Of a stretch of DNA of 64,000 nt, positions 28,685-62,432 are shown in pieces. The notes beneath the pieces are model-generated. The model was not told the DNA's origin. It did no database searches and was given only the letters and a program-made list of their open reading frames with translations. Origin of the DNA: a virus; the IMG/VR virus record IMGVR_UViG_3300038424_000709, positions 1 to 64,000 of that record; one strand, given 5' to 3'. The translations under genes and the position numbers were made by a program. How positions within the stretch are numbered: the stretch's first letter is position 1; each line of letters opens with the position of its first letter.

Positions 28685-29350
28685 ATGACCGAAAGCAGCG
28701 GCAGTCGCAAGTTTGCACTCAAAGCAGTCAGATTGTTGTTGACCATCGCATTGTTCCTGGCAGCCCTGGCACCAGCCATGGCGATTTCGCAGACCTATAC
28801 CTACACGTACACCGGCGACCAGTTTTGGTACGTGGGGGGCTGGGGGCTTGGCGGGGTCAGCGGCTACTTCACCCTGTCGTCCCCGCTCAAGTCGAACCGC
28901 ACCTACAGTCTTGAGCCCGATACGCTGCCTGGAGGCACGATCATCGACTACAGCTTTACGGACGGGAGGACTGTGTGGGACTTGGCCAATTTCGTCGCTG
29001 GTCCCGACGCCTTCGGGGTCGTCAGCGTGTTTTCCCTGACCACCGACAAGGACGGCATCCAATATTGGGACTTCAACATCGACAACTACACCGGCCCGAT
29101 AATCGGCTGGCCCTGTCCTGGGTACCCATATTGTTCCGGTGGGTTCGTAACGACCAAATGGGAAGGCCAGCCCGGCGACGGCGACGGCACCAACGTGTAC
29201 GGCAACTACAACGGCTGGAGCAGCTACCCGAACTACTGGACCGGGCTCGGGACCTGGACCGGGGACGTCTCGTCCACGCCGGAGCCCGCCAGCCTCGGCC
29301 TCGTCGGCATGGGCCTCCTGGGTATCGCGGGAGTCCTGCGGCGGAAATGA
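28685..29350 (+). CDS. secreted PEP-CTERM-anchored protein
   Basis: 221 residues. The N-terminal signal peptide is basic, then hydrophobic (LLLTIALFLAALAPAMA), with cleavage likely after AMA near residue 35. The mature part is Tyr/Gly/Thr-rich and beta-like without Cys-rich motifs. The C-terminus is a textbook PEP-CTERM sorting signal: STPEPASLG, a hydrophobic helix (LVGMGLLGIAGV) and a short basic end LRRK. In bacteria such proteins are processed by exosortase in the cell envelope and often go to the surface or matrix. A phage carrying one implies use of the host exosortase, perhaps to mask or modify the surface. It has its own promoter and an AAAGGAGG ribosome site. Confidence 0.85.
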   Translation: MTESSGSRKFALKAVRLLLTIALFLAALAPAMAISQTYTYTYTGDQFWYVGGWGLGGVSGYFTLSSPLKSNRTYSLEPDTLPGGTIIDYSFTDGRTVWDLANFVAGPDAFGVVSVFSLTTDKDGIQYWDFNIDNYTGPIIGWPCPGYPYCSGGFVTTKWEGQPGDGDGTNVYGNYNGWSSYPNYWTGLGTWTGDVSSTPEPASLGLVGMGLLGIAGVLRRK

Positions 29351-29643: not shown

Positions 29644-29722
29644 ACTGGGGTGCGGCGAGCGGCCAAAGCCTCCTGTCCTACAAACAGGCATATCGTGGGT
29701 TCGAATCCCACCCCCAGTACCA
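29644..29722 (+). tRNA. tRNA-Val (anticodon TAC)
   Basis: Acceptor ACTGGGG/CCCCAGT, encoded ACCA end, T-arm GTGGG-TTCGAAT-CCCAC, anticodon arm CCTGT-CCTACAA-ACAGG. The loop has C where position 33 is normally T. The D-arm pairing is only three base pairs. Confidence 0.8.
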
Positions 29723-29730
29723 AGTTTCGG

Positions 29731-29805
29731 GCGGGCGTAGCTCAGCGGTAGAGTGGGGCCTTGCCAAGGCTCAGGTGGGGGGTTCGACTCCCCTCGCCCG
29801 CTCCA
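29731..29805 (+). tRNA. tRNA-Gly (anticodon GCC)
   Basis: Acceptor GCGGGCG/CGCCCGC, discriminator T, encoded CCA. Anticodon loop TTGCCAA, T-loop TTCGACT. It follows tRNA-Val after an 8-nt spacer AGTTTCGG. Confidence 0.95.
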
Positions 29806-29877
29806 GGTTCGTGGGATGTTTTGGCGTCTGCGCAAGTCGGCCACGTCCGAATAAAGCAATGACCCGAGGCATCCCGT
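29806..29877 (+). ncRNA. hairpin spacer with AAGTCGG/ATAAAGC motif
   Basis: GGGATG and CATCCC enclose a 50-nt region with AAGTCGG and AATAAAGC. A second spacer (30150-30200) has GCTGGG/CCCAGC around AAGTCGGATAAAGC. It is neither a tRNA nor an open frame; function unknown. Confidence 0.3.
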
Positions 29878-29952
29878 GGGCTCGTAGCCGAGCGGGAAGG
29901 CGCTGCACTTGCAATGCAGAGGTCGGGGGTTCGACTCCCTCCGGGTCCACCA
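29878..29952 (+). tRNA. tRNA-Ala (anticodon TGC)
   Basis: Acceptor GGGCTCG/CGGGTCC with two G-T pairs, ACCA end encoded. Anticodon arm CTGCA-CTTGCAA-TGCAG, T-loop TTCGACT. Normal T33. Confidence 0.95.
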
Positions 29953-29960
29953 AGCTTTGA

Positions 29961-30034
29961 GCGGGACTGGTATATGGGTTGTGCCCTGGCCCTCCAAGCC
30001 AGAGAAACGGGTCCGAGTCCCGTGTCCCGCTCCA
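29961..30034 (+). tRNA. tRNA-Gly (anticodon TCC)
   Basis: Acceptor GCGGGAC/GTCCCGC, TCCA end. Anticodon arm CTGGC-CCTCCAA-GCCAG has C at position 33. The T-loop is TCCGAGT, so position 55 is C instead of T. Two departures from near-universal bases in one tRNA. Confidence 0.88.
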
Positions 30035-30041
30035 TTTTCGT

Positions 30042-30117
30042 GGGCCCGTAGCTCAGCCGGGAGAGCGCATGGCCGGCAGCCATGAGGTCGGGGGTTCGAG
30101 CCCCCCCGGGTCCACCA
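30042..30117 (+). tRNA. tRNA-Ala (anticodon GGC)
   Basis: Acceptor GGGCCCG/CGGGTCC, ACCA end. Anticodon arm CATGG-CCGGCAG-CCATG, again with C33. T-loop TTCGAGC. It is 7 nt (TTTTCGT) after the previous tRNA. Confidence 0.92.
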
Positions 30118-30250
30118 AGGTTCGGCATCTGGCGGCCCGGCCTGCGGGTCGGGTGCTGGGTCAAGTCGGATAAAGCGAGCGTCCCAGCGCTTCCGGATAC
30201 CACGTCCGGGCAGGGGGCCAAAGCTATCCCGGCCTTGCCGCCAGTCTTTC
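30118..30250 (+). ncRNA. structured 133-nt spacer in the tRNA array
   Basis: Contains GCTGGG ... CCCAGC around AAGTCGGATAAAGC (about 30156-30190), then a GC-rich hairpin near 30212-30242 (GGCAGGGGGCC with GGCCTTGCC). No tRNA with conserved T-arm and no plausible gene. Confidence 0.3.
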
Positions 30251-30329
30251 GGTCTGTTAGGGGAGCCTGGTCGTCCCCGCTGACCTGTCACGTCAGAGAC
30301 CACGGGTCCGAATCCCGTACAGACCGCCA
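30251..30329 (+). tRNA. tRNA-Asp (anticodon GTC)
   Basis: Acceptor GGTCTGT/ACAGACC, GCCA end. Anticodon arm CTGAC-CTGTCAC-GTCAG, D-arm GGGG/CCCC. T-loop TCCGAAT carries C55. Confidence 0.92.
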
Positions 30330-30337
30330 AATTTCGT

Positions 30338-30412
30338 GCGGCCTTATGCCAGCGGTAGACGCCTTCCCTGACACGGAAGGAGCGACAGGTTCGACTCCTG
30401 TAGGTCGCACCA
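30338..30412 (+). tRNA. tRNA-Val (anticodon GAC)
   Basis: Acceptor GCGGCCT/AGGTCGC, ACCA end. Anticodon arm CTTCC-CTGACAC-GGAAG, T-arm ACAGG-TTCGACT-CCTGT. Confidence 0.93.
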
Positions 30413-30413
30413 T

Positions 30414-30489
30414 GGGAGCGTAGCTCAATTGGGAGAGCGCGGCGCTCGCAACGCCGAGGCAGAGGGTCCGAATCCCTTCGCTTCCACCA
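30414..30489 (+). tRNA. tRNA-Ala (anticodon CGC)
   Basis: Only one base after tRNA-Val. Acceptor GGGAGCG/CGCTTCC, ACCA end, anticodon arm CGGCG-CTCGCAA-CGCCG. T-loop TCCGAAT with C55. Confidence 0.93.
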
Positions 30490-30496
30490 AGTTTTC

Positions 30497-30571
30497 GGCC
30501 TGTTCGTCTACCGGCTAGGATCCCAGGTTCTCAACCTGGGGAAGGGGGATCGACACCCCCACAGGCTACCA
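30497..30571 (+). tRNA. tRNA-Glu (anticodon CTC)
   Basis: Acceptor GGCCTGT/ACAGGCT, ACCA end. Anticodon arm CCAGG-TTCTCAA-CCTGG. The T-loop reads ATCGACA, with A at 54. Confidence 0.9.
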
Positions 30572-30633
30572 AAATCCGGGTCCTTGGCATCGCCGAGGGC
30601 GACCCAACCAGCCGTCCGAGGAGGTGCCGAGAG

Positions 30634-30834
30634 ATGGGTTCTTTCTTTGAGTTTTGCAGGGAGCTGTATCACGTCCAGCCGGTCAGGCTGTTCGACCGGA
30701 TCACCCAGTGGATAGTGGTGGGGTGGCTCATCGCCCACACCGCAAGCTGGGTGGTGGTGGAGTTCTGCCGCCTGGGAAGGGCCACGCAGCTCAAGCTCAG
30801 GAGGATTTTCCAACAGGACGTGGCGGAAGAATAG
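30634..30834 (+). CDS. small membrane-associated protein in the tRNA array
   Basis: 66 residues with one hydrophobic helix (ITQWIVVGWLIAHTASWVVV) flanked by charged ends. ATG is preceded by GAGGAGGTG. It lies between tRNA-Glu(CTC) and tRNA-Cys and is followed 9 nt later by another tiny membrane peptide. Function unknown. Confidence 0.6.
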   Translation: MGSFFEFCRELYHVQPVRLFDRITQWIVVGWLIAHTASWVVVEFCRLGRATQLKLRRIFQQDVAEE

Positions 30835-30843
30835 GGAGTGCCC

Positions 30844-30945
30844 ATGTATTGGGTCGTCGCATCCGGTTATCTCCTGGCCTTTTTGGCCGGGCTGTGGTTC
30901 ATCACCAAGCCGCGCGGCTGGTGGTTTGGCGTGGACCCGAAGTAG
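30844..30945 (+). CDS. 33-residue single-helix membrane peptide
   Basis: ATG with GGGAG 5 nt upstream. It starts MYWVVASGYLLAFLAGLWFI and then turns polar (TKPRGW). It sits directly behind the previous membrane gene and ends 6 nt before tRNA-Cys. Tiny but with a good ribosome site and a clear helix. Confidence 0.5.
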   Translation: MYWVVASGYLLAFLAGLWFITKPRGWWFGVDPK

Positions 30946-30951
30946 GTTTTG

Positions 30952-31027
30952 GCACCCGTGGCCAAGCGGCAAAGGCGGAGGCCTGCAGAGCCTCTAATCG
31001 GGGGTTCGAGTCCCTCCGGGTGCTCCA
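30952..31027 (+). tRNA. tRNA-Cys (anticodon GCA)
   Basis: Acceptor GCACCCG/CGGGTGC, TCCA end. Anticodon arm GAGGC-CTGCAGA-GCCTC, T-loop TTCGAGT. One of only two tRNAs here that do not read a GNN codon. Confidence 0.95.
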
Positions 31028-31188
31028 GTTGGGGCGATGAAGGCTGGCAAGGAGCGGCCGGACAGAGTCTCCTTGGAGTTCCGGCGCAGCGGATCGGGGC
31101 AGGAGAGAAACCGAGTGGCCGCGCAGTCGGCAGTCTTCGTGGCTGCCGTTGGCCTGTTGCCGAACGGCATCGGCCATCGCCTCGTTTT
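31028..31188 (+). ncRNA. structured spacer
   Basis: 161 nt without a gene. Pairings include AAGGAG with CTCCTT (about 31050-31072), GGCAG/CTGCC (31129-31146) and GGCC/GGCC around 31150-31175. It could be a leader or an unknown small RNA. Confidence 0.25.
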
Positions 31189-31265
31189 ACCGTCGAAGAC
31201 GAAGCATCGAGTCCCCTGGCTTTCAACCAGGGCATTAGCGGGTTTGAGCCCCGTCGACGGTACCA
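31189..31265 (+). tRNA. tRNA-Glu (anticodon TTC)
   Basis: Acceptor ACCGTCG/CGACGGT, ACCA end. Anticodon arm CCTGG-CTTTCAA-CCAGG, T-loop TTTGAGC (T at 56 instead of C). Confidence 0.92.
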
Positions 31266-31270
31266 TTTTC

Positions 31271-31330
31271 GGGCGGGAGCGAATGTGCCGCCCTTCGGGG
31301 CGGCTTTATAGGCTGATGTCCCGCCCGTTA
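31271..31330 (+). terminator. nested hairpin, probable terminator
   Basis: GCCGCCC-TTCG-GGGCGGC (31287-31304), followed by TTTATA, sits inside GGGCGGG/CCCGCCC (31271-31277 with 31320-31326), which is followed by GTTATTTT. It separates tRNA-Glu(TTC) from the next tRNA. Confidence 0.6.
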
Positions 31331-31335
31331 TTTTG

Positions 31336-31429
31336 CCCGGCGAAGTTTGCGGCCGAACGAGCGGTCTTATAAACCGCATAAGCTCCAGATTAGAGCATGG
31401 ATCGGGTTCGACTCCTGACGCCGGGACCA
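31336..31429 (+). tRNA. class II (long variable arm) tRNA, anticodon TAT
   Basis: Acceptor CCCGGCG/CGCCGGG, ACCA end, anticodon arm GCGGT-CTTATAA-ACCGC, T-loop TTCGACT. About 24 nt separate the anticodon stem and T-stem, with GCTC/GAGC pairing. That is a long variable arm, normally limited to Leu, Ser, Tyr and Sec. TAT would read ATA (Ile), so identity is uncertain. Confidence 0.8.
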
Positions 31430-31463: not shown

Positions 31464-31821
31464 GGGGGCGTTCCGGTTTCGACGGGAGCGCTCGTGTCCA
31501 GGAGGCACGCCGGGGGACCATGCCGCCCGCAACAGGGATGGAAAGTACAGACGCAAAACCACTTGCTATGTACGCAATGGCCTAGAGACATCTGGGCCAC
31601 GCCTCCCCCTCCAGGCTCGCATGCAGGGGACGGGGCGTTGATATGGCGAGAGTAGCTCCGGCGAAGCTTGCAGGCCGGGGCGAATTTCCGAAAGTTAGCC
31701 AGCGTCCTTGCATCGCCCGGTACCTTGGGGCGCTGGCGAAGGCAGTGGAACCGGGACAAGCGTGTAGTCTCCTGATCGTGGGACTCCTCGGACGGGGGTT
31801 CGACTCCCCCCGCCTCCACCA
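31464..31821 (+). ncRNA. ssrA: tmRNA (transfer-messenger RNA)
   Basis: 358 nt, one-piece type. The 5' end GGGGGCG-TTCCGGTTTCGACGGG matches the conserved tmRNA start and pairs with CGCCTCC-ACCA at the 3' end. The T-arm GGGGG-TTCGACT-CCCCC is intact. The resume codon falls at nucleotide 90, as in E. coli, giving the tag A-K-P-L-A-M-Y-A-M-A followed by TAG. The end differs from the usual ALAA/LVA types but keeps small hydrophobic residues and Tyr at the equivalent place. It would rescue stalled ribosomes and tag the products, with host SmpB. Encoded CCA and a promoter right at its 5' end support expression. Confidence 0.95.
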
Positions 31822-31862: not shown

Positions 31863-32276
31863 ATGGACAATGCAAGCAGGGCATCCGCTGCGGACTTGGT
31901 GAAGCGCCTCTACAGGACCGAGGAGCCGATCTTCGAGGCCCGGCTCAGGGCGTCGTCCGCGGGCAGGTACGACGACGACGTGTCGGTCGCTGTCTCGCTC
32001 CCCGCCGAGCGCAGGATATCGTTCCGGCTCAAGGAGGCCCCCGAGGGAGGGGACGGCACGCCGTGCTTCCCGCCCGGCCCCGACTTCGAGCTCCTGTCCC
32101 TCGGCATCGGGGACATCAAGCGGATGAGCCCGCTGGTCCGCAGGATGTTCGCCCCGGGAGGGCGCGGGACGTGCGCGGGGGTGTACCTGGACCCCGACCT
32201 CGCGCTCAGGGAGATGGCCAATTGGGCCTCGTGGTACGAGGAGGGGGTCAGGCAGGGGGAGTTCCAGGCAGCCTAG
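31863..32276 (+). CDS. hypothetical protein between tmRNA and RNase P RNA
   Basis: 137 residues from ATG 31863 (GGAGGG upstream; box TGGTATTTG at 31837-31844). Helical start (ASAADLVKRLYRTEEPIFEA), beta-like middle (SVAVSLPAERRISFRLKEA), Gly/Pro-rich, ending in a Trp-rich helix (LREMANWASWYEEG). It ends 3 nt before the RNase P RNA. It does not look like RNase P protein (no RNR motif) or SmpB. Function unknown; its position makes it worth testing for an RNA role. Confidence 0.6.
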   Translation: MDNASRASAADLVKRLYRTEEPIFEARLRASSAGRYDDDVSVAVSLPAERRISFRLKEAPEGGDGTPCFPPGPDFELLSLGIGDIKRMSPLVRRMFAPGGRGTCAGVYLDPDLALREMANWASWYEEGVRQGEFQAA

Positions 32277-32279
32277 CTT

Positions 32280-32576
32280 GTGGACCAGGCAACCGCCGCC
32301 CCGTGAGGGGGGGAGGAAAGTCCGAACTCCATAGGGCAGCATGCGGGGTAACGCCCCGGCACGCCGCAAGGCGTGACAACCAGCGCCACAGAGACGAGCC
32401 GGTTAGGTCCGGAGTGAAACGCGGCAAGCTTCATGCGGAGCAATCGCAAATAGGAGGGGAGGGCCTGCCCGGCCCGCATCACCCTCGGGTAGCGAGCTTG
32501 AGGCGGCCGGCGACGGCCGTCCCAGACGAATGGTTGCCACCTCGCAAGAGGGACAGAATTCGGCTTACCGGTCCAC
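32280..32576 (+). ncRNA. rnpB: RNase P RNA (bacterial type)
   Basis: About 297 nt. Conserved blocks appear in order: GAGGAAAGTCC with CTCCATAGGGCA, GGGTAACGCCC, CCACAGAGACGA, GAGTGAAACGCGGCAA, GGAGCAATCGCAAATAGG, GGGTAGCGAGCTTGAG, and AGACGAATGGTTGCCACC with GACAGAATTCGGCTTA. Helix P1 is GTGGACC/GGTCCAC (32280-32286 with 32570-32576) and P2 is GGCAACC/GGTTGCC (32288-32294 with 32532-32538). P3 is a very short hairpin, and the region that holds P13/P14 in E. coli is reduced, so the RNA is smaller than the roughly 380-nt standard. It is the catalytic RNA that removes 5' leaders from tRNAs, here placed among its own substrates. Confidence 0.95.
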
Positions 32577-32577
32577 G

Positions 32578-32593
32578 AATTTTTCGGTATTGT
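32578..32593 (+). promoter_or_regulatory. promoter-like box after RNase P RNA
   Basis: AATTTTTTCGG-TATTGT (hexamer 32588-32593), then GGGAGGA and the ATG at 32613. The T-run directly after P1 may also serve to end the RNase P RNA. Confidence 0.55.
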
Positions 32594-32612
32594 GCTTCGG
32601 GAGGAAACGGAC

Positions 32613-32924
32613 ATGACAAAGATGACGATCAACGAGGGGCTCACGTGGGCGAAGACGCTGGCCGAGCGGCACGCCGAGCTCCAGGGCCTGCGCAACGAGA
32701 ACTCCGCCGCACGGACGACCTATCGCGGACTGAAGGGCGACACGCCGGAGAAGGTCGAGCCGACGTACGACGTCGTGGCCCTGGACAGGCTCATATCCAA
32801 CATCGCCCGCGAGCGCCGGAAGCTGGACATGGCCATCAAGGCGACCAACGCCGTGGCGGCCATCAAGGGATACGAGCCCAACGAGGACGTCCTCGGCGAG
32901 CTCGTGCCGGCCAAGAAGGAGTAG
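32613..32924 (+). CDS. small coiled-coil protein (DIP1984-like)
   Basis: 103 residues, two long charged helices (LTWAKTLAERHAELQGLR and VALDRLISNIARERRKLDM) ending in a Val/Glu/Lys tail. The pattern resembles small helical DIP1984-family proteins of unknown role. ATG 32613 has GGGAGGA 8 nt upstream. Confidence 0.55.
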   Translation: MTKMTINEGLTWAKTLAERHAELQGLRNENSAARTTYRGLKGDTPEKVEPTYDVVALDRLISNIARERRKLDMAIKATNAVAAIKGYEPNEDVLGELVPAKKE

Positions 32925-33161: not shown

Positions 33162-33236
<75 letters not shown>

Positions 33237-33257: not shown

Positions 33258-33509
33258 ATGGTAGAGGCATCTACCATTAAGATTGAAGATATAGTGGTTC
33301 CCGACATTTGTCCAGTCCTGGGGATTCCTTTATATTTATCTAGGGGTAAAGCGGGTCCAAACTCTCCTTCTTTGGATCGCATCAACAACAGTAAAGGGTA
33401 TATTTCAGGAAACGTGTTTGTCATCTCATATCGTGCCAATGTTCTTAAAGGAGATGCAACCATTGATGAGGTGAAAATGGTATTAGACTACATGGAGAAG
33501 AACAAGTGA
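33258..33509 (+). pseudogene. C-terminal half of an HNH endonuclease, probable remnant
   Basis: 83 residues, closely matching the C-terminal half of the HNH enzyme at 10833-11471: IVVPDICPVLGIPL, SPSLDRINNSKGYISGNVFV and YRANVLKG align with its nuclease core. The N-terminal zinc and DNA-binding half is missing. The ATG touches the -10-like TATTAT (33252-33257), leaving no room for a leader. It is AT-rich and directly behind tRNA-Gly(CCC). It is likely a truncated homing gene, although the open frame and ATGA overlap with the next gene could allow expression. Confidence 0.6.
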
Positions 33510-34276
33510 AGGCACAGCTACTTTCAGATTTACATTCTGAATTCTACCCAGACCCGGTCAGGTTCCTCAAGACCATCCCCTTCGAGCCGAACCTCGATTT
33601 CCTCCTCCTTCCCGGGGACCTCGTCGTCCCCTGCCGACAAAGCCCCCAAGCCATCAAGGACGTGCTGGGCTTCCTTTCCAGCAAGGCCAGGCACGCCGTG
33701 TTCGTCGCGGGAAACCATGAGTACTACGGCGGCTCCAAGGAGGAGGCGGAGGCCGTCCTGTCCGAGGCCATGCCCCCGAACTTCCACTGGCTGCGGAACG
33801 GCGACGAGACCGTCGAGGGCGTCCGTTTCTTCGGGGGCACCCTCTGGTTCCCGCTCGACAAGGAAAACTGGTACCACAGGCACAAGCTCAACGACTTCTC
33901 TCAGATAAGGGGGTTCGCCGACTGGGTCTATACGGAGAACGGGGCCTTCCAGGAGGCCGCGTGGAGGCTCGTCCGGGAGGGCACGGTCGTGCTGTCCCAC
34001 CACGTCCCGTCCATCCTGGCCATCCATCCGCGCTACAGGGACGACAGGGAGAACCTCAACCGGTTCTTCGTCTCGGACCTCACGAGCCTGATCCTGGAGA
34101 AGCAGCCGAGGCTGTGGGTGTACGGGCACACCCACCTCCCATACGACCGCACGATGGGCGGGACCAGGGTCGTCGCGAACCCGTTCGGCTACCCCCACGA
34201 GAACAGGCTGTCCGCCTACCCCCCGGTCGTGGCGGACGTTCCGGGATCGCCATCCGGCGGTATTTGCAGCCTGTAG
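33506..34276 (+). CDS. metallophosphoesterase
   Basis: 256 residues with the full calcineurin-like set: SDLHSEF (residue 7 on), LLPGDLV, VAGNHEYYGG, VVLSHHVPS and VYGHTHLPYD. These bind two metals and hydrolyse phosphomono- or diesters. Substrate unknown; phage relatives act on nucleotides, DNA ends or RNA phosphates. It starts inside the stop of the HNH fragment (ATGA overlap), and the base composition returns to GC-rich after the first 15 codons. Confidence 0.85.
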   Translation: MKAQLLSDLHSEFYPDPVRFLKTIPFEPNLDFLLLPGDLVVPCRQSPQAIKDVLGFLSSKARHAVFVAGNHEYYGGSKEEAEAVLSEAMPPNFHWLRNGDETVEGVRFFGGTLWFPLDKENWYHRHKLNDFSQIRGFADWVYTENGAFQEAAWRLVREGTVVLSHHVPSILAIHPRYRDDRENLNRFFVSDLTSLILEKQPRLWVYGHTHLPYDRTMGGTRVVANPFGYPHENRLSAYPPVVADVPGSPSGGICSL

Positions 34277-35454: not shown

Positions 35455-38400
35455 ATGGTCAACTTCAGCGTGTGCCTGATAGGGAAGAACGCGGAGAGGA
35501 CGCTCCCGCGGCTGATCGCCTCGCTGGGGGGGTTCCTGGGACGGGGGGGCGAGGTGGTCCTTGTGGACACGGGATCCACGGACGGGACCGTGGAGGTTGG
35601 CAGGGCCGCAGGGTTCTCCGTCCATTGCGTGGGGGACAAGTTCATGTTCGACATGCCCCCCGGCATCGCGGACAAGATCAATGCCCGGTTCGTTGTGGAG
35701 GGGGAGGCCCCGATAGTCCGCCAGGGGGACAGGCTGTTCAACTATGCCGCCGCCAGGAACCATTCCGCCTTCCTGGCCACGAACGACGTCGTCTCGATGC
35801 CCGACTGCGACGAGCAATTCTCCGTGTGCGACATCGACGCCATCGAGGAGGCCGTCAGGCGGGGCTACGAGCAGATGGAGTTCCACTTCGTCTTCTCGCA
35901 CTACCCCAACGGCCAGCCGGCCGTCCAGTTCAAGCAGTGCAAGATGTACGACCGCAGGAAGATGCGCTGGCAGGGAATCGTCCACGAGGTCCTGGTGGGC
36001 GAGGCCGAGCGCACCTACCTCCCCCCGAGTGTCCTCCTCCTGGAGCACTTCCAGTTGCCCGACAACGACCCGCACAGGGACCGCTACCTCGCCGGGCTGG
36101 CGCTCGACTGCTACCTCAACCAGGGCAACGACCGGAACTCCCACTACCTCGGGCGCGAGCTCCTGTGGAGGGGAAGGCCGAAGTCCGCCATCAAGGAGCT
36201 GGCCCGCCACGTCGCTATGAACCGGTGGGCGCAGGAGAGGGGCCAGTCGCTGGTGTTCATCGGGGACGCATGGATGGCGCTCGGGGAGGAGGGGAAGGCA
36301 CTCGACTCCTGGCACAGGGCGTTCCTGGCGGACGGGACGCGCAGGGAGCCGCTGCTCCGCCTCGCCGACCATTACTGGAGGAAGAACGACCCGCAGAAGG
36401 TCGCCTGCTACTGCTCGGCGGCCCTGGAGATACCCCCGAACGACTGCTACTGCAACCTCGGGGCGCACTACACCTACGAGCCGCACGAGAAGCTGTACTG
36501 GGCGCTGTGGTGGCTCGGCGACAAGGCGCGGTCGAAGGAGCACTACGACAAGGCGTTCGCCTACGACCCGGCCAACCCGAAGTACCAGGCTGAAAGGCAG
36601 TTCTACTATCCCCGGGACTACGAGTACAAGGACCAGGGCATCGAGGGGTGGATGAGCATCGGCGAGCTCAACTGGCTCTACGAGAAGGCCAAGGGGATGG
36701 ACAGCGTCCTGGAGCTGGGGAGCTGGAAGGGGAGGAGCACCCACGCCCTGCTGTCCGGGTGCAAGGGCACGGTGACGTGCGTCGACACCTTCCAGGGCTC
36801 CGTGGACCCGAGGGACCAGACCAACGCCATGGCGAAGGCGGAGGACATCTTCGCCACGTTCACGAAGAACGTCGGGCACTTCAAGAACCTCGAAGTCCTG
36901 CGCATGACGAGCCGCGAGGCCGCCGCCAAGTGCGCCGTCGAGGGGCGCAGGTTCGGCATGGTGTTCATCGACGCCGGGCACACCAAGGAGGAGGTCAAGG
37001 AGGACATCGGGCTGTGGCGGGACATGGCCGATGTCGTCCTGTCGGGGCACGACTACCTCCCCGGCACCTGGATGGGCGTCTGCGAGGCGGTGGACGAGTG
37101 TGTCCCGGGGACGGAAAAGTGCGAGAGCATCTGGTTCAAGGAGACGAGGTCCGAGCCGCCCGACAGGATTCCCAGGCGCATCTTCACCGTCTGGCTCTCC
37201 GAGGACGGAAGCATGCCGGACCTCGTGAGGAAGTGCATCGCCAGCCAGAGGGCGGTCGAGGGATACGAGCACCACGTCATCGGACTGGGCGACTGCCCGA
37301 AGGGCATCCCCTACCTGGACGCCGCCATCGGGGCCAAGAAATGGGTCAAGGCGTGCGACTACGTCCGCATACACGAGCTGATCGAGCGGGGCGGCATATA
37401 CTGCGACGCCGACGTGGAGATCCTCCCCGGCAAGGATTTCCGCGGGCTGCTCCGCCGCTCGCTGTTCGCTGGGCGGGAGGAGAACGGCTTCGTGTCCACC
37501 GCCGTCATGGGGGCGGAGCCGGGGCATCCGCTCCTCAAAGCGCACCTGGAGGAGGTCGTAGCCAAGTTCAGGGGGGACGACGACAAGAACTTCGAGTCCT
37601 CCCTGGAGATCATCACCCCCCGCATCCTGGCCGCCGCCAGCAAGGACGAGGGCATCCTCGTGTGCATTCCGGAGGTCTTCTACCCCTACAACCACCAGAC
37701 CGGCAGGACCAACGTCACCAGCCATAGCATTACCTTCCACCATTTCCTGAAGTCGTGGGTCAAGGAGCCCGGGTCCGCCAGCCTGGGCAGGGCCCCCATA
37801 CCCAGGAGGATCTTCAACATATGGCTGTCCGAGGACGGGGGCATCCCGCCCGCCATGGGGAAGTGCCTGGCCACGCAGAGGGCGATGGGGGGGTACGAGC
37901 ACCAGGTCCTCACCCTCAAGGACCTGCCCAGGGGAATCCCCTACATGGACGCCGGTGTGGCTGCTAAAAAATGGGTCAACGTCTCGGACTACTGGCGGCT
38001 CCACGAGCTGGCGGAACGCGGGGGAATCTACTGCGACCTGGACGAGGAGGTCCTTCCCGGCAGGAGCTTCGACGACATGCTGGGCCATTCGCTCTTCGTG
38101 GGCACGGGGGAGGACGGATGGGTCGGGAACTCCCCCATCGGCTCGATCCCGAACCATCCTTTGATCCGGGAGCAGATGAGGCTCATGGAGAGCAAATTCA
38201 AGGGGGACGAGGACTTCCCCTTCGCGGCCGCGACGGAGGTCTTCACCCCCCTGGTAAAGGAGGGCGGGAGCGGGCATCCGGGCGTGGCGGTCTATCCCCC
38301 GGAGTACTTCACGCCCTACAACCACCGGACTGGCACCATCAACGTCACCCCCAACACGAGGCTCTTCCACCACTGCATGAAGTCGTGGGTCGACGCCGCC

Positions 38401-38997
38401 CACTACAGCAAGAAGGACTACCTGCCCCGCGTCGCCTTCGTCATCCCCGCCCTGGGAAGGCCGGAGGGGTTGAGGCGGTGCGTGGACTCGATAGATGGGC
38501 TGTACTACCCGAAGCACCTCGTCACGATCCTGGTGGACGGCACCACCGACACCGTGCCCGTGAAGGTCAACCGGATGTGCAGGGCCGCCGAGGCCGCCGC
38601 CTTCTTCTTCGCCGCCGACGACGTGGAGTTCTCCGACCCGTGGTGTCTCTACCGGGCGGCGCTGTCGTCAAGGGAGCACGGGCTCGTGGCGGTCAACACG
38701 GGCCCCCTGCTCCCGGACGGGGGAAACGCCTGTGAGCACTTTCTCATCCGCAAGGACCTGTTCGACAGGCTCGGGGAGGTCTTTTCCGAGAGATTCCACC
38801 ACGTGGGGTGCGACAACCTCCTCTGGGCCAAGGCGTCGAGGCTCGGGGAGGCGTTCAGGGACGAATCCGCCAGGCTGACCCACCACCATTTCACCAAGGG
38901 GGCCTCGATGGACGAGACCTACCGGAAGGGGTGGTCGCAGGTCGAGCGGGACCGTGCCGTGCTGAAAGAGGAGCTGGAAAAGCTGGATAAAGCATAA
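35455..38997 (+). CDS. five-domain glycosyltransferase/methyltransferase fusion
   Basis: 1180 residues. Domain 1 (1-230) is a GT2 glycosyltransferase (FSVCLIGKNAERTLPRLIAS, LVDTGSTDGTVEV), followed by TPR-like helices to about 390. Domain 2 (about 398-560) is a SAM methyltransferase of the Methyltransf_24 type (VLELGSWKGRSTHALL, FGMVFIDAGHTKEEVKED). Domains 3 and 4 (about 570-770 and 780-985) are two copies of a DXD-type sugar transferase (IPRRIF-WLSEDG; YCDADVEILPG and YCDLDEEVLPG). Domain 5 (from 989) is a GT2-like fold starting RVAFVIPALGRPEGLRRCVD. It could build or methylate a surface glycan on virion or host, or modify DNA bases. The fibre gene lies downstream. Confidence 0.85.
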   Translation: MVNFSVCLIGKNAERTLPRLIASLGGFLGRGGEVVLVDTGSTDGTVEVGRAAGFSVHCVGDKFMFDMPPGIADKINARFVVEGEAPIVRQGDRLFNYAAARNHSAFLATNDVVSMPDCDEQFSVCDIDAIEEAVRRGYEQMEFHFVFSHYPNGQPAVQFKQCKMYDRRKMRWQGIVHEVLVGEAERTYLPPSVLLLEHFQLPDNDPHRDRYLAGLALDCYLNQGNDRNSHYLGRELLWRGRPKSAIKELARHVAMNRWAQERGQSLVFIGDAWMALGEEGKALDSWHRAFLADGTRREPLLRLADHYWRKNDPQKVACYCSAALEIPPNDCYCNLGAHYTYEPHEKLYWALWWLGDKARSKEHYDKAFAYDPANPKYQAERQFYYPRDYEYKDQGIEGWMSIGELNWLYEKAKGMDSVLELGSWKGRSTHALLSGCKGTVTCVDTFQGSVDPRDQTNAMAKAEDIFATFTKNVGHFKNLEVLRMTSREAAAKCAVEGRRFGMVFIDAGHTKEEVKEDIGLWRDMADVVLSGHDYLPGTWMGVCEAVDECVPGTEKCESIWFKETRSEPPDRIPRRIFTVWLSEDGSMPDLVRKCIASQRAVEGYEHHVIGLGDCPKGIPYLDAAIGAKKWVKACDYVRIHELIERGGIYCDADVEILPGKDFRGLLRRSLFAGREENGFVSTAVMGAEPGHPLLKAHLEEVVAKFRGDDDKNFESSLEIITPRILAAASKDEGILVCIPEVFYPYNHQTGRTNVTSHSITFHHFLKSWVKEPGSASLGRAPIPRRIFNIWLSEDGGIPPAMGKCLATQRAMGGYEHQVLTLKDLPRGIPYMDAGVAAKKWVNVSDYWRLHELAERGGIYCDLDEEVLPGRSFDDMLGHSLFVGTGEDGWVGNSPIGSIPNHPLIREQMRLMESKFKGDEDFPFAAATEVFTPLVKEGGSGHPGVAVYPPEYFTPYNHRTGTINVTPNTRLFHHCMKSWVDAAHYSKKDYLPRVAFVIPALGRPEGLRRCVDSIDGLYYPKHLVTILVDGTTDTVPVKVNRMCRAAEAAAFFFAADDVEFSDPWCLYRAALSSREHGLVAVNTGPLLPDGGNACEHFLIRKDLFDRLGEVFSERFHHVGCDNLLWAKASRLGEAFRDESARLTHHHFTKGASMDETYRKGWSQVERDRAVLKEELEKLDKA

Positions 38998-54669: not shown

Positions 54670-55359
54670 ATGGGAGAAGAGCAGCTTCCGCCAATCGAGG
54701 AGCTCGACTTCGAGCGCGAGTCCGTCCGGAAGCTCTACCGTTCCGGGGCCAACGGGATAAACCCCGAGAGGTGGGAGCGCGCCAGGGACGTCATACGCTT
54801 CGACGACGTGGTCTTCGAGCTCACGGGGCGCAGGGACAGCGTCATCCGTTGCCCCTTCCACGGCAAGGATTCCCGCCCCTCCTTCACCCTCTACAACAGG
54901 ACCAACGACGCCTACTGCTTCGGGTGCCCGCCCGGCAAGATGTACTACGACTCCGTCATATTCGCGTCGAAGTACATGGAGATAAGCCGCGTCCAGGCCC
55001 TCCAATGGCTCGAAAAGAAGTGGGGGCTCCCCCGCCTCTCGGACGTTCCTCTGGAGGGCGAGGAGGACGAGGAGGAAACCCTGCTGGGCTTCTGGGACCT
55101 GGCGGAGCCCTTCATAGTCAAGGCCGGCCGGGAAGTGCAGAACGTCCGCGACCCGGAGCTCGCGGAGGACTACATCCGCATATACTTCACCGCCCTCGGC
55201 CTCGAAAAGGCCGCCAGCGCCGCGGAGAAGGACCCCGAGGGAAACCCCGGGGACCTGCACCTCCAGGCGGCCCTGGAGCTTGCCAGGGCCCTGGGAAAGG
55301 ACAAGCTTTCCTCCATTGCCGACAGGAAAGTGGAACGGGGCAGTAATGAGCAATCATGA
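54670..55359 (+). CDS. CHC2 zinc-finger primase domain protein
   Basis: 229 residues. Near 55-95: RDSVIRCPFHGKDSRPSFTL with YCFGCPPGKM, the CxxH...CxxC zinc finger of DnaG-type primases, followed by helices (SRVQALQWLEKKWG). No Toprim catalytic core follows; the rest is helical and acidic. It may recognise primer sites and work with a separate catalytic subunit. It overlaps DNA polymerase by ATGA, so the two are made together. Confidence 0.75.
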   Translation: MGEEQLPPIEELDFERESVRKLYRSGANGINPERWERARDVIRFDDVVFELTGRRDSVIRCPFHGKDSRPSFTLYNRTNDAYCFGCPPGKMYYDSVIFASKYMEISRVQALQWLEKKWGLPRLSDVPLEGEEDEEETLLGFWDLAEPFIVKAGREVQNVRDPELAEDYIRIYFTALGLEKAASAAEKDPEGNPGDLHLQAALELARALGKDKLSSIADRKVERGSNEQS

Positions 55360-58300
55360 AGGCGAGCCTTGAAAACGTGACCTCCAAGGACCTCAAGAAG
55401 GCCAAGAAGAAGGTCACGAAGCCCAGGGACATAAGGAGCGTGTTCCGCGAGCGCCTCGCCTCCCTGGCCGCCGAAGGGGGGGTGTCCAAGGTCAGGAAGC
55501 CCTGGATGAGCACCAAGGCCTTCTGCATCCTGGACACGCCGGAGGCCCTCCAGTCGTGGGCCGACGACGTAATCGCCAACGCCCCCCGCTTCGAGTTCTA
55601 CGGGCATACGTCCCCCGTGGTCGCCGTGGACACGGAAACCCTCGGCCTCGACACCCGCCTGTTCGTGAGGCTTCGCAGGCTTCCCGATGGCTCCTACAAG
55701 CAGTTCTACGAGGTCAAGACGGACGTCGCCGGAATATGCCTTTCGGCCGATGGGATCAAGGGCGTCTACATCCCCCTCAACCACGAGTTCCAGGACATCG
55801 GCCTCGGCATCGCCGCCAAGGTCCTCGACCGGGCGGCATGCGACGGAATCCTCCAGCGGCTGTTCGACCAATGCCATCTGGTCTTCTACAACGGGAAGTT
55901 CGACCGCGAGGTCATGCGCCTCACGCTCGGAATCGTTTTCAGGCCCTACCCGTTCTTCGAGGACGTGCAGGTGCTGGCCTACATCAACGACCCCAAGGCC
56001 GACCTTGAGGACAAGAGCTTCTACACGGGGGATGCCGGGGGCCTGAAGGCGGTCTCCAAGAACATCCTCGGCATAGAGCAGATCGAGCTCGAAGATATCG
56101 CCAGGGTCAGGGCCGAGACTTGCCCCCTCACCGGGACGGCATTCTGCCAATGCTCCGCGGAACAGAAGAAGGAAAGGAAGCACGGGCTCAAGTTCCATTA
56201 CGTCCCGTTCTCGTGGGTCCCGGTCGATCTGGCCCTGTGGTACGCCGCATCGGACGCCATCTGCACCTGGATGCTGTGGGAAAAGATGCATGCCCTGGCA
56301 AGGACGAGGAGGACCGTCCACAGGATAGACCACGAGCTCGTCGACACCATCGCCTGGATCGAAAGGCAGAGGTTCATCATAGACACTGAGCGCCATGCCC
56401 GCACGGTCAGGGGGCACCAGAAGAAGATCGCGGGCCTGGAGAAGCGGCTCTACGACCTGGGCATAGCGGCGGGGTACCCCGAGCCCCATACCGACGAGGG
56501 CGAGGTCTTCGAGAAGGACAGGTTCAATCCCGGGTCGAACAAGCAGCTCCAGAAGCTGTTCTTCGAGGTGAAGGGATGGAAGCCGACGAGGAGGACCCCC
56601 ACGGGCCAGGCATCCTGCGACGCCGAGGCAATCGGGGACCTGCAGAAGCTCTACCCGGACGACGAGTTCCTCTCCGTCCTCTCGCAGTTCAACGACTACA
56701 AGGCCCTCCATCCCGCGGACCTGAGGTTCGATCCCGCGGACGGGACGGCGCGCATATACCTCAAGCAGAACGTGGTGGCGGGCGGGCGGCTGTCGTCGGC
56801 CGGCGGGGAGTTCGAGAAGGACGGGGGGTTCGGGCTCAACTCCCAGGCGGTGAAGAAGGTCGAGCCCCACCTCATGTGGAAGGTCCGGGGGAACGTCCTC
56901 AAGCCGGACGAAATCCCGGAGGACCAGATAGAGGAGCATGCCGAGGAGGACCTGCATCCGTCCTGCTTCCGGGAAGTCGGGGAAGACGGCGGGACGATGC
57001 GCAAGAAGGCCCCGGGCATCGTCCACAACCACATCGGGCAGTACATGGGATATGCCATCTGCCTGGTGCCCGGCTGCAAGACCTGTGCGGAAAAGTTCGG
57101 CGTCCTCATCGAGGACGCGAAGATGGACGCCAACGAGGTCGTCAACCTCCGCGCCCTGTTCTGCTCCCCGCCCGGCTGGACGTTCTTCACCATAGACTAC
57201 GGAAACATCGAGATGCGGGCGGCCGCCAACTGCTCCGGCGAGCCCGAGTTCATCAAGGAGTTCCTCGAAGGCAAAGGCGACTTCCACTCCCTCACGGCCA
57301 GCAAGGTGTTCCCCGAGTTCAACGACCCCAGGACCCCCAAGGAAGTCCGCAAGAAGCTCCGCGACCTGGCCAAGATCATCAATTTTGCCCTCCTGTACGG
57401 CGGCACCGAGTACGCCATCTACGAGAACATGCGGAAGCAGGACCCCAACATCACCAAGGAGCGGGCGAAGGAGATGGTGGAGAACTACTGGAAGGGCGTT
57501 CCGGTGTTCTTCGCGTTCTGCCAGCAGAAGCAGGCCATGGCCCGGGACCAGTTGCTCTGCACCACCGTCACGGGTCGCGTCATCAACTTCCAGTCCGCCA
57601 TGGATGCCCTACATCTCCACGTCCCGAACGAAGAGGAGCGGAAGAACTACTGGAAGTACCGGGACCTGATGAGGAAGGCCGAGGAGCTCAAGGTGGCCGG
57701 GGACTCGGCGTGGAGCGAGTACTTCAACCTCGCCTCCTCCATGTGGAAGAACCTCGATACCGGGGTCCGCAACTGCATGGACTACAACAAGTTCATGGGC
57801 AAGATTCAGAGGGTGAGCGTCAACGCCCCCCTCCAGGGCCTTGCGGGGGACTTCATGCGCATGTCCCTGAACAAGATACATACATGGGTGGAGTCCGACC
57901 CCCCGGTGCAGTCCGTCATCATGCTCCACGTGTCGGTCCACGACGAGATCGACTTCTCCGTCAAGGACGAGTACGTGCCGTTCGTCGTTCCCCGCGTCAC
58001 CCGCATCATGAAGCTCCGCAAGCTCCACGAGAGGCTGAAGTGGCCCGTGCCCATCGAATGCGATGCCGAATACGGCATCTCGTGGGACGTGGAGCACCAT
58101 GTCACGGGCGACGACGACCACGTCCCCGTCGCCTGGACCAAGATCAAGGCCATTGCGAACTACCTCCCGGACGGATGGGAGGCGGGCACCGTCAGGAACC
58201 TCATCAAGGCCATAGCCTCGGGGGACGAGCGCAGGGTGGCCAGGGCGGACGCCTTCCTCAAGGAAAACCTGCATAAGCGCGCCTACGCCGCAGCATGGCA

Positions 58301-58934
58301 TTGCTTCTGGAGGAAGGACGGGCAGCAGAAGGCGAGGCAGTCCGACCCCAAGGCGGTGAGGGCCGCCCTGCTGGTTGCCCTGCAACTGGACGAGTTCTGG
58401 AGGCTGGACGGGGTCCCGGACGACGAGGGAGACGGGATGGAAACCCTCGAACAGTACGAGGCGAGGAACGGGCTTGGCCTCGCCGACCGCAACCCCGCCG
58501 CCCTGTCGTTCGGGCCCCTCGGCTCCCTCCCCCTGGACGCCGAGGTACAGCGCCCCGTCCCCGAAATGCTCGGGGCCTTCTTCATCCCCCCTCCCCCGGG
58601 AATGTCCGAATCCTCGGCCTGCGATGCCGGACATGCCCTCGAAACGCCCCAAATGGCGCTTCCCCTCGTCCCGAGCGTCCCTACCATCCCCGAGCCCGCC
58701 GCGGACGCAGCAGGCAGCCCTTCCGCAGCGCCGGAGCCCATCCCAATAAGCCCGCCACCGGGAACCAAGGTATTCGAGCTCGGGGACTTGAGGGGGGGAA
58801 GGGACCGGCAGCTAAGCATAATCATCGGAAAGGGCCCCAACCCCATGTGGGTCAGGCTCCTGAACGGGGAGGAGTTCTGCATCCACGCCATGCTGGACCA
58901 CATACCGGACAAGTTCCTCAAGAAGAAGGAATGA
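55356..58934 (+). CDS. polA: family A DNA polymerase with 3'-5' exonuclease
   Basis: 1192 residues. The exonuclease domain has VAVDTETLGLD (about 90-99) and LVFYNGKFDREV. The polymerase has motif A FFTIDYGNIEMRAAA (about 610), motif B AKIINFALLYGGTEY (about 670) and motif C MLHVSVHDEID (about 857). No 5'-nuclease domain is present. The N-terminal 85 and roughly the last 200 residues are extra. The tail is Pro/Ala-rich and ends in a small domain VFELGDLRGGRDRQLSIIIG. It is the likely replicative polymerase. Confidence 0.9.
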   Translation: MKASLENVTSKDLKKAKKKVTKPRDIRSVFRERLASLAAEGGVSKVRKPWMSTKAFCILDTPEALQSWADDVIANAPRFEFYGHTSPVVAVDTETLGLDTRLFVRLRRLPDGSYKQFYEVKTDVAGICLSADGIKGVYIPLNHEFQDIGLGIAAKVLDRAACDGILQRLFDQCHLVFYNGKFDREVMRLTLGIVFRPYPFFEDVQVLAYINDPKADLEDKSFYTGDAGGLKAVSKNILGIEQIELEDIARVRAETCPLTGTAFCQCSAEQKKERKHGLKFHYVPFSWVPVDLALWYAASDAICTWMLWEKMHALARTRRTVHRIDHELVDTIAWIERQRFIIDTERHARTVRGHQKKIAGLEKRLYDLGIAAGYPEPHTDEGEVFEKDRFNPGSNKQLQKLFFEVKGWKPTRRTPTGQASCDAEAIGDLQKLYPDDEFLSVLSQFNDYKALHPADLRFDPADGTARIYLKQNVVAGGRLSSAGGEFEKDGGFGLNSQAVKKVEPHLMWKVRGNVLKPDEIPEDQIEEHAEEDLHPSCFREVGEDGGTMRKKAPGIVHNHIGQYMGYAICLVPGCKTCAEKFGVLIEDAKMDANEVVNLRALFCSPPGWTFFTIDYGNIEMRAAANCSGEPEFIKEFLEGKGDFHSLTASKVFPEFNDPRTPKEVRKKLRDLAKIINFALLYGGTEYAIYENMRKQDPNITKERAKEMVENYWKGVPVFFAFCQQKQAMARDQLLCTTVTGRVINFQSAMDALHLHVPNEEERKNYWKYRDLMRKAEELKVAGDSAWSEYFNLASSMWKNLDTGVRNCMDYNKFMGKIQRVSVNAPLQGLAGDFMRMSLNKIHTWVESDPPVQSVIMLHVSVHDEIDFSVKDEYVPFVVPRVTRIMKLRKLHERLKWPVPIECDAEYGISWDVEHHVTGDDDHVPVAWTKIKAIANYLPDGWEAGTVRNLIKAIASGDERRVARADAFLKENLHKRAYAAAWHCFWRKDGQQKARQSDPKAVRAALLVALQLDEFWRLDGVPDDEGDGMETLEQYEARNGLGLADRNPAALSFGPLGSLPLDAEVQRPVPEMLGAFFIPPPPGMSESSACDAGHALETPQMALPLVPSVPTIPEPAADAAGSPSAAPEPIPISPPPGTKVFELGDLRGGRDRQLSIIIGKGPNPMWVRLLNGEEFCIHAMLDHIPDKFLKKKE

Positions 58935-59945: not shown

Positions 59946-62432
59946 ATGGCTGAGAAAAAGACTCCGAAGAACAGGCTGGGAAAGAGGGAGAGGGGCGCAA
60001 ACCTCCGCATCGGCACCACTGAGGTGAAAAGGAAGATCGCCACCGGCAAGGGCGGAAGGCAGTTCGCCTCCGCCGGGCCCCGCACCTCCATGACGTCCTC
60101 CGGGGAGATCGCCGACATCCAGATTTCCAGAATCCGCCAGGCGGCGGTCCAGGGCCTCCCGCTCGGGGCCTCCGGGTGGGGGATGTACGAGCTGGCAAGG
60201 TTCGACAAGACCGCCGCCTTGTTCTCCGACGGCACGCTCGGGAACGCGGACATAGCCGACTCCAACAACATCGGCTACTACAGCTACGAGTTCCCGGTGG
60301 ACGCCCTTGAGCTTCCCGCCTCCAGGGCCGAGGAGCTGAGGTTCTACCGCCTTGCCTACGACCGCGACCCCATAGTCGGGCGCGCCATCGACATGCACAC
60401 CGAGCTTCCCCTGTCCAAGTGGACGCTGGAGAAGCCGAAGTGCTCAAGCGACGACTTCGCCGACTACGTGTACGACTACTTCCAGGGGATGGTGAGCAGG
60501 ACCAAGTTCTTCCAGGTCCTCATCCAGGCCGTCCGCGAGCACTGGAACATCGGGGAGTCCTTCATATTCATCGAGGAGTCCGACGAGGTCGAGCCGTGCG
60601 ACATGGCCAAGGCGGTAATCAAGAAGGACGAGGAGAGGGGAAAGAAAACGAATGCCCAGGGGACCGAGCCCGGCATGGACGCCGAGAACCCCCCGCTGGG
60701 AGGCACGGCGGACCGCATCCTCGACTTCCTGCAGCCCGAGAAAAGGTCCTCCTGGCTGAGGAAGCGCTCCTCGGACATCGAGGAGATCGAGAAGGCGGGG
60801 CTGGGCTTTTCTCCCGGGGAGAGCATCGACGCCGTCAAGAAGGAAATAGGCAGGAAGAAGGCCAGCCTTTCCAGGGGGATCAAGAAGCTTGCCAAGGTGA
60901 TCTCCAGGGACGGCGCGGACGACGAGCATCCCATCTCCGTCACGGCGGCCCCCGCCGACCCGCCGGCCGGCGCGGATGCGCCTCCTCCTCCCCCGGGAGG
61001 GGAGGGAGCGCCGCTCGGGGACGCGGGGCTGGCGGGAGTCGAGGGGATGGGAGGGCCCGACGACGCGGCGGTCCCCCCGATGGACGATCTTGGCGGAGCG
61101 CCCCCCGTGATGGGGGGAGGAGGCGGGGGCTTCCCCGCCGGGCCCCCCACCCCCGGGGACGCCGCAGGGCCGGTCCAGGACGCCATATCGCAGGGCTCCA
61201 GCATAGCCAAGCAGCAGGAGCTGATGGAATTGAAGCGCGTCATCAAGCTGCTGGAGAAAAAGAAGAAGGTACTTGAGGAACTGAAGGAAATACGGGAGAA
61301 AAGGCGGGAGGAGGAGGAGCTGTTCTCCCACGTGGCGAACAAGGACTACGAGGGGTTCGACAAGATCCAGGTCCTGCCCCCGGAGCAGATCGAGCTGGCG
61401 GCCGAGGGCGGGCTGACCGATGGGGCCACCATCTACTACAAGCCCCTGGAAAAGCAGAAGACCGCCTACCTCGAAGATCCCGAGATAGACCCCAAGGTCA
61501 AGGCGATGCTCGAAGAGAAGGGGAAGGTGGCGCTCAACAAGGACCCGTTCAAGGGGTCGTACGTCATCCACTTCCCGAGGAAGAAGTCCGACTACGAGCT
61601 GCACGGGCGCTCCATACTCCAGCGCTGCATCCGCACGGTCATCTACCGCGAGAAGCTGCGCCAGGTGCAGAGCACGCTGGCCAGCCGCAACATGACCCCC
61701 AAGACGCTGATCGTGGCCCCCGAGATACCGACCAGCGAGGTGCTGGCCCTGCGGGCCCACGTCGACGAGGCGAAGGCCGACCCGGACTACAGCGTCGTGG
61801 TCAACTACGAGTGCAGGTGGGACGAGATCGGCAGCGACGGGCGGCTCCTGTCCCTGGACGGGGAATGGCAGCACACCAACTCCGACCTTTCCATCGGCCT
61901 CGGGTTCTCGCCCGAGATACTCATCGGCGAGGGGCTGTACAGCGGCAACAAGGTCCAGCTCCAGCTCATCGAGACGTCCTACCTCCAGTTCCGGGACGTG
62001 CTCGCGGACATCGTCGAGCAGGGCATATTCCTCCCGATTGCGATGAAGAAGGGCTTCTACGAGATGGACAAGTGGGGGAAGGCCCGCTGGATATACCCCA
62101 AGGTGTCGTTCTCCCGCCTGGCCCTTAGGGATTCCGGGGACGTCTACGACATGCTGTACAACCTGTACAGCAAGGGGAGCATCCCGGTCAGCATCGTGCT
62201 GGAGTTCCTGGAGATCGACCCTGAGGACTGCAAACGCAGGCTGGAGGAGGACCTCTACGGGGTCAACGACAGCAAGTTCAACGAGCTGCTTTCCGCCATC
62301 TACAACAGCCTCGGGGAGGCCATCCTGACGAAGTCCGACATCCTCAAGAGGGTCATCAAGGGGATGCAGCTCGACGAGACCGAGCAGGAGCCCGAGCAAG
62401 GCCCGGAAGGTTCCGGGCAGGGAATGGCATGA
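59946..62432 (+). CDS. portal protein
   Basis: 828 residues. Typical portal features: an N-terminal RLAYDRDPIVGRAIDMHTEL entry region, a central clip/stem with long helices, FDKIQVLPPEQIEL, YVIHFPRKKSDYELHGRSIL, and a QLQLIETSYLQFRDVLADIV segment near the end. A Pro/Gly-rich insert lies near 335-415. The portal forms the twelve-fold vertex ring for DNA passage. An ATTCGGTGCTTTATTGAGG stretch precedes the ATG. Confidence 0.8.
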   Translation: MAEKKTPKNRLGKRERGANLRIGTTEVKRKIATGKGGRQFASAGPRTSMTSSGEIADIQISRIRQAAVQGLPLGASGWGMYELARFDKTAALFSDGTLGNADIADSNNIGYYSYEFPVDALELPASRAEELRFYRLAYDRDPIVGRAIDMHTELPLSKWTLEKPKCSSDDFADYVYDYFQGMVSRTKFFQVLIQAVREHWNIGESFIFIEESDEVEPCDMAKAVIKKDEERGKKTNAQGTEPGMDAENPPLGGTADRILDFLQPEKRSSWLRKRSSDIEEIEKAGLGFSPGESIDAVKKEIGRKKASLSRGIKKLAKVISRDGADDEHPISVTAAPADPPAGADAPPPPPGGEGAPLGDAGLAGVEGMGGPDDAAVPPMDDLGGAPPVMGGGGGGFPAGPPTPGDAAGPVQDAISQGSSIAKQQELMELKRVIKLLEKKKKVLEELKEIREKRREEEELFSHVANKDYEGFDKIQVLPPEQIELAAEGGLTDGATIYYKPLEKQKTAYLEDPEIDPKVKAMLEEKGKVALNKDPFKGSYVIHFPRKKSDYELHGRSILQRCIRTVIYREKLRQVQSTLASRNMTPKTLIVAPEIPTSEVLALRAHVDEAKADPDYSVVVNYECRWDEIGSDGRLLSLDGEWQHTNSDLSIGLGFSPEILIGEGLYSGNKVQLQLIETSYLQFRDVLADIVEQGIFLPIAMKKGFYEMDKWGKARWIYPKVSFSRLALRDSGDVYDMLYNLYSKGSIPVSIVLEFLEIDPEDCKRRLEEDLYGVNDSKFNELLSAIYNSLGEAILTKSDILKRVIKGMQLDETEQEPEQGPEGSGQGMA

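Follow-up and report, generated by a model that had tools for sequence, protein, structure and literature searches.

Near the middle of the stretch analysed here, a window comprising positions 1 to 64,000 of the viral record IMGVR_UViG_3300038424_000709 (IMG/VR; 114,183 bases in all), lies a gene for the RNA of RNase P, surrounded by tRNA genes, a transfer-messenger RNA (tmRNA) gene and several protein-coding genes, all on the plus strand. The upstream tRNA cluster (29644-31429; ARAGORN, Rfam and inspection of the sequence) runs in the order Val, Gly, Ala, Gly, Ala, Asp, Val, Ala, Glu, Cys, Ile, and its tRNAs have an encoded CCA. While 12 tRNAs were called around the RNase P RNA by ARAGORN, a thirteenth that it missed, tRNA-Glu(TTC), was read by eye at about 31189-31265; a tRNA-Glu(ttc) is called at the equivalent place in the large relative G002, and the DNA of another relative, G015, is 83% identical there. 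The D arm of this additional tRNA is unusual. The tmRNA gene (31464-31821; RF00023, 120.6 bits, also called by ARAGORN) encodes the tag AKPLAMYAMA, and is followed by a 137-aa open reading frame (31863-32276), for which no family and no homologue in the relatives' loci were found; its stop codon immediately precedes the RNase P RNA. Downstream are a gene with a weak DUF6847 match (32592-32924), whose homologue in G002, 72% identical, also follows the RNase P RNA, a tRNA-Gly(CCC) gene (33162-33236; Rfam and ARAGORN) and a calcineurin-like phosphoesterase gene (33506-34276; PF00149) that is syntenic with the RNase P RNA in this lineage. The tRNAs and tmRNA that the first-pass annotation had described next to the RNase P RNA are thus recovered by ARAGORN, RF00023 and Rfam. 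Other open reading frames of the window include a phage protein with a PEP-CTERM sorting motif at its C-terminus (28685-29350) and a 1180-aa protein in which glycosyltransferase and methyltransferase domains are joined (35455-38997).

RNase P RNA is a classic cellular ribozyme that makes the 5' ends of tRNAs. In a cmscan comparison of the window with all of Rfam, the bacterial class A model RF00010 (RNaseP_bact_a) matched at 32277-32583 on the plus strand with 203.2 bits (E 2.3e-64), against a gathering cut-off of 100 bits, and the match extends over positions 1-367 of the 367 in the model. This was the one RNase P match among all families, and the full record of 114,183 bases has no second RF00010 match. 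A complete RNase P RNA had been proposed from the sequence at 32280-32576, with Infernal and Rfam models named as the means of checking it; the significant score over the full model upholds both the identity and the place, but the proposed ends were short by 3 and 7 bases. The RNA agrees with 97 of the 108 strongly conserved (upper-case) Rfam positions, and three of the 11 mismatches are compensated changes in P4.

Folding of the 307-nt RNA on its own sequence allowed placement of helices P1-P12 and P15-P19, including the pseudoknots P4 and P6, with a short P12 and no P13 or P14. The catalytic helix P4 is formed by AGUCCGAA, which contains the bulged U (32319-32326), and by UUCGGCU of conserved region V (32559-32565), while the P6 pseudoknot with the P17 loop, a class A feature, pairs GGGC at 32334-32337 with GCCC at 32467-32470. 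The specificity domain P7-P12, which in class A RNase P RNA is for the T arm of tRNA, forms as well, and its ACAGAGACGAG joint is conserved. Absent from the P15-P17 region is the GGU motif of L15, which pairs with the tRNA CCA in E. coli and is common but not universal in the family. The same motif is missing in many of the sampled Acidobacteriota, so that its absence leaves class A membership intact and, next to CCA-encoding phage tRNAs, amounts to weak counter-evidence to function; for the same reason we rejected the idea that the loss is a special phage adaptation. Its covariance-model score and those defining features of structure that were examined place the RNA in bacterial class A.

The hallmark genes on the same contig identify the carrier as a tailed phage (Caudoviricetes). 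The portal protein (59946-62432, plus strand; phrog_16240, E 1.6e-20) is 54-72% identical to those of 16 IMG/VR contigs of up to 456 kb, and 56% identical to the portal of Tunturi_5, an isolated 309-kb jumbo phage of the acidobacterium Tunturiibacter (PMC11924767), which also provides the best named match (46%) to the family A DNA polymerase (55356-58934, plus strand; PF00476, phrog_17). A UvsX-like recombinase, a helicase, and virion and lysis proteins are encoded on the record as well; the 114,183 bases of the partial record yielded no terminase, whereas terminases were found in its relatives. At 114 kb the linear record is shorter than the contigs of 224-456 kb among its portal relatives and than Tunturi_5 (309 kb), and it is probably a fragment of a jumbo genome. 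A 5845-aa open reading frame occupies record positions 88726-106263 (L035-L036).

Because IMG/VR contigs are computational, a bacterial rnpB joined to phage DNA during assembly or binning has to be weighed, all the more since some public 'phage' records with an RNase P RNA look bacterial (Acinetobacter MD-2021a and MW495066). The latter, filed as 'Microcystis phage MaAM05, complete genome' (our L220), carries RNase P RNA along with engB, fabI, glyS and mtgA, has no terminase match, and looks like bacterial DNA filed as phage. Such an artefact is extremely improbable here: the same neighbourhood recurs in independent metagenomes, many of the contigs concerned carry portal or terminase genes, and every sampled bacterial rnpB is distant from the RNA (67% identity or less). 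Contigs G015 and G002 share the gene order of the locus, from the tRNAs and tmRNA through the RNase P RNA to the genes downstream; we rejected chimerism and contamination on this ground, and within the limits of sequence evidence a chimera of phage and host DNA is excluded. The first-pass annotation had seen in such a chimera the way in which its placement of the RNA in a phage genome might fail; the hallmark genes and the shared gene order bear that placement out.

Substitutions among related phage RNAs indicate that the fold has been maintained. Pairs were counted on the structure derived from the window's own RNA, with 87 pairs, over eight phage RNAs (this one and seven relatives). Cells were paired in 91.8% of cases, compared with about 40% when partners were slid, and changes on both sides were found in 137 cells, compared with 49 in shuffles and at most 24 with slid partners; a structure taken from the RNA's own sequence favours the unslid pair count but not this excess of double changes. 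Both sides had changed in 57 of the 87 pairs. P4 was 100% paired with covariation in five of its seven pairs, and the P6 pseudoknot was likewise 100% paired with covariation in three of four, its versions being GGGC/GCCC in the window, GAGC/GCUC in G002 and G015, and GAAC/GUUC in G016. P4 was located in 42 phage RNAs, where 14 versions of its sequence occur, and none of them has lost any of the seven pairs or the bulged U; this survey used the best region V candidate for each RNA, with two mislocated and one not found. The P4 helices of the relatives carry compensated changes unlike the two versions present in 36 bacterial rnpB sequences (region I tallied). At the level of sequence comparison, this pattern demonstrates selection on the window RNase P RNA to keep its catalytic fold.

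An IQ-TREE tree compared 67 bacterial RNase P RNAs, roughly half of which come from Acidobacteriota, with 18 from phages. The window RNA and 11 other phage RNAs split from all 67 bacterial sequences with a branch support of 98/98, in a tree whose bootstrap had not fully settled. The supported unit is this group of 12; a separate clade of the eight members of the window's own clade was not rejected either (p-AU 0.54). The placement in a tree that had been suggested with the first reading of the locus therefore puts the RNA in a phage-only group. Its nearest relatives are the RNase P RNAs of G015 (81%) and G002 (80%), while no sampled bacterial RNA exceeds 67% identity in an alignment, and those of Acidobacteriota, the phylum in which Tunturi_5 has its host, are not the closest; a recent capture from a host was rejected for this lineage on these grounds. 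Gene order tells of a similar continuity: tRNAs for Val, Gly, Ala, Asp, Glu and Cys form a block around the RNase P RNA in eight lineage members, the window included, a tmRNA lies near the RNase P RNA in this record, G015 and G002, and the phosphoesterase gene is present in 14 of the 21 lineage records tested, this one among them.

The remaining six of the 18 phage RNAs were placed among bacteria, suggesting several acquisitions. Together with the cassette-like occurrence of RNase P RNA in tRNA arrays of unrelated phages, this could be taken to mean that the gene is host DNA which recombination has moved into tRNA arrays and which has no selected function. A deep phage-only lineage, compensatory changes throughout the RNA and conserved synteny would not be expected of such a passenger, and covariation in particular disfavours it strongly; we consider it highly unlikely.

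RNase P RNAs scoring above the cut-off were found in 53 other IMG/VR records, mostly within tRNA arrays, a count that is not dereplicated, includes several near-identical records and does not have phage nature proven for each. A region I pattern search returned 32 IMG/VR contigs, of which 25 were above the RF00010 cut-off, most of them inside tRNA arrays, and a lineage-specific pattern returned 34 contigs, with 22 of the 25 newly tested above the cut-off. Scans of the complete records of portal relatives yielded, in addition, G002 (317 kb), G003 (231 kb), G006 (456 kb), G012 (300 kb) and G014 (224 kb), and G021 was added as a full-length RNase P RNA match. A broad region V pattern, which returned mostly short or prophage-like contigs whose remainder was left out, gave no RNase P RNA above the cut-off in the tested, not-yet-known contigs of at least 55 kb. 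Some of the contigs bearing an RNase P RNA are 300-500 kb long, and portal or terminase genes are present on ten of them (G002, G003, G006, G012, G014, G016, G020, G021, G024 and G025). Judged by these matches, RNase P RNA is a recurrent trait of several jumbo-phage lineages and no lone oddity.

The tRNA arrays of other viral contigs contain miniature forms of RNase P RNA, some 227-260 nt long, that score 50-80 bits to RF00010 (L008:4368-4594, L022:8569-8795, L014:1410-1666 and L026:1206-1465). Of these, L008, L022 and L026 were checked for P4 and retain its pairing. The miniature in L026 is close to a terminase gene (G031), and G031 combines a portal or terminase gene with a below-cut-off miniature.

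In other phages the RNase P RNA lies only 0-9 nt from tRNAs (L015, L014, L031, L009 and L019), and tRNA genes abut it at 0-6 nt on one or both sides at L015:727-1224, L014:1410-1739, L031:462-887 and L016:5316-5742. With such spacing the RNase P RNA is probably excised from a shared transcript, and an RNase P cut at the next tRNA would make the 3' end of the ribozyme itself. Excision of the phage RNase P RNA may thus possibly be carried out in part by RNase P.

The nearest large relative, G002 (317 kb), encodes at least 59 tRNAs, covering all 20 amino acids, plus a tmRNA and an RNase P RNA. Its tRNAs lie in four clusters (L257, L258, L259 and L238), and the genes for the tmRNA and the RNase P RNA share one of these. 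The Leu, Ser and Tyr tRNAs of G002, which have a long variable arm, are grouped in one cluster, and the cluster with the RNase P RNA contains Val, Ala, Asp, Glu and Gly tRNAs (GNN codons) and Cys. Tunturi_5 has 43 tRNAs, a CCA enzyme and a tRNA ligase (PMC11924767). No RNase P RNA was found in this phage, even at a low threshold in its main tRNA region, indicating that the RNA is dispensable in an isolated relative with a large tRNA set.

Taken together, the full-length RF00010 match, the covariation, the kept P4, the phage-only group and the conserved synteny argue for a functional, phage-inherited class A RNase P RNA, which probably works with host RnpA protein to mature phage pre-tRNAs and pre-tmRNA. 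The RNA would be transcribed together with or near the phage tRNA and tmRNA genes and would bind host RnpA, and the hybrid holoenzyme would trim the 5' leaders from phage pre-tRNAs and pre-tmRNA. Maturation of tRNAs and tmRNA could then continue in a cell whose rnpB is untranscribed or degraded, with the result that the phage's large tRNA set would be usable. RNase P RNA and protein subunits are interchangeable between distant bacteria, and no RnpA gene (PF00825) was found in this record or in 31 further records, some of them fragments. A phage-encoded RnpA was accordingly rejected on its absence from the 32 records; the phage would need the host protein, and its use is supported by this absence and by subunit interchangeability. 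The lack of any strong predicted promoter or terminator at the RNase P RNA locus counts against this explanation. Boosted processing of phage tRNAs and tmRNA, one of the roles offered by the first-pass annotation, is the best supported, by covariation, intact core and array context; the altered processing and the replacement of host RNase P that it also offered stay candidate roles. Candidate reasons for a phage to need its own RNA are loss of host rnpB transcription and host defence directed at tRNAs.

The same need for host protein bears on a different role, in which the phage RNA would compete for host RnpA or redirect RNase P specificity, with catalysis secondary, so that host pre-tRNA processing would fall and phage transcripts be favoured. 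If any RnpA is used, it must be drawn from the host, and the identity of the phage RNA to the sampled bacterial RNase P RNAs does not exceed 67%. A pure decoy, however, needs no specificity domain, P4 or region V, all of which are kept and covary, and RNase P RNA travels with phage tRNAs; we regard such a takeover as unlikely. The phage RNA might instead act alone or with a phage protein unrecognisable as RnpA. Bacterial RNase P RNA is catalytic by itself in vitro, no RnpA was found and several neighbouring genes have no assigned function, but the known cases of catalysis by RNA alone require non-physiological salt, and no gene of unassigned function accompanies the RNA throughout the lineage, its most regular neighbour being the phosphoesterase. 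We hold this to be quite unlikely as well.

A broader reading can be put forward tentatively, and with some doubt: several jumbo-phage lineages might run their own tRNA maturation, with a full tRNA set, a tmRNA and a phage-evolved RNase P ribozyme whose preference has shifted to phage pre-tRNAs. If true, phage translation would be partly independent of host RNase P during host shut-off or tRNA-directed defence, and some phages would be using a miniature ribozyme of only about 227-260 nt. The deep phage-only lineage adds the ribozyme for tRNA 5' ends to the translation-support genes of phages, and suggests that certain viruses themselves supply part of the machinery for maturing tRNAs. It makes testable the question of whether infecting phages lose access to host RNase P, and its natural variants, with compensated P4 changes and very short forms, lend themselves to tests of which elements the ribozyme requires.

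Phage-encoded RNase P RNA has no published description in the literature searched, outside subscription papers and preprints, where a prior mention is possible; within that scope, the remark in the first-pass annotation that no phage example was established stands. Nor was there an annotated named phage with an RNase P RNA among 50,697 phage records queried with four different RNase P RNAs and one miniature: the miniature gave no match, and the matches obtained were bacterial-looking or unverified. One study even remarked that its megaphages were unusual in yielding only tRNAs and a tmRNA in an Rfam scan (PMC8172020). What is new is the carrier, the position and the phage-specific evolution of the RNA, the class A ribozyme family being already known.

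Compared with bacterial class A RNase P RNA (rnpB, M1 RNA, RF00010), the window RNA shares the full model, regions I and V, the P4 bulged U, the P6 pseudoknot with the P17 loop and P18 with its GNRA loop, but is encoded by a phage within a tRNA and tmRNA cluster and is shorter (307 nt, with no P13 or P14). The tRNAs and tmRNAs of huge phages (PMC7162821) and of Tunturi_5 (PMC11924767) belong to the same kind of phage, the same gene cluster and the same support of translation; these reports describe tRNAs, tmRNA, synthetases, CCA enzyme or tRNA ligase, and do not mention RNase P. ROOL and GOLLD RNAs (PMC12286853) resemble it as large structured phage RNAs near tRNA islands, but those are families with no assigned function, whereas the RNA described here is of a known ribozyme family with a defined substrate. 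The extra RNase P RNA homologues of Mycobacterium austroafricanum (PMC9569102) are likewise additional, diverged copies, for which horizontal acquisition is suspected by the authors; they lie in bacterial genomes and seem not to be presented there as phage-encoded, unlike the RNase P RNA of the window, which is carried by a phage.
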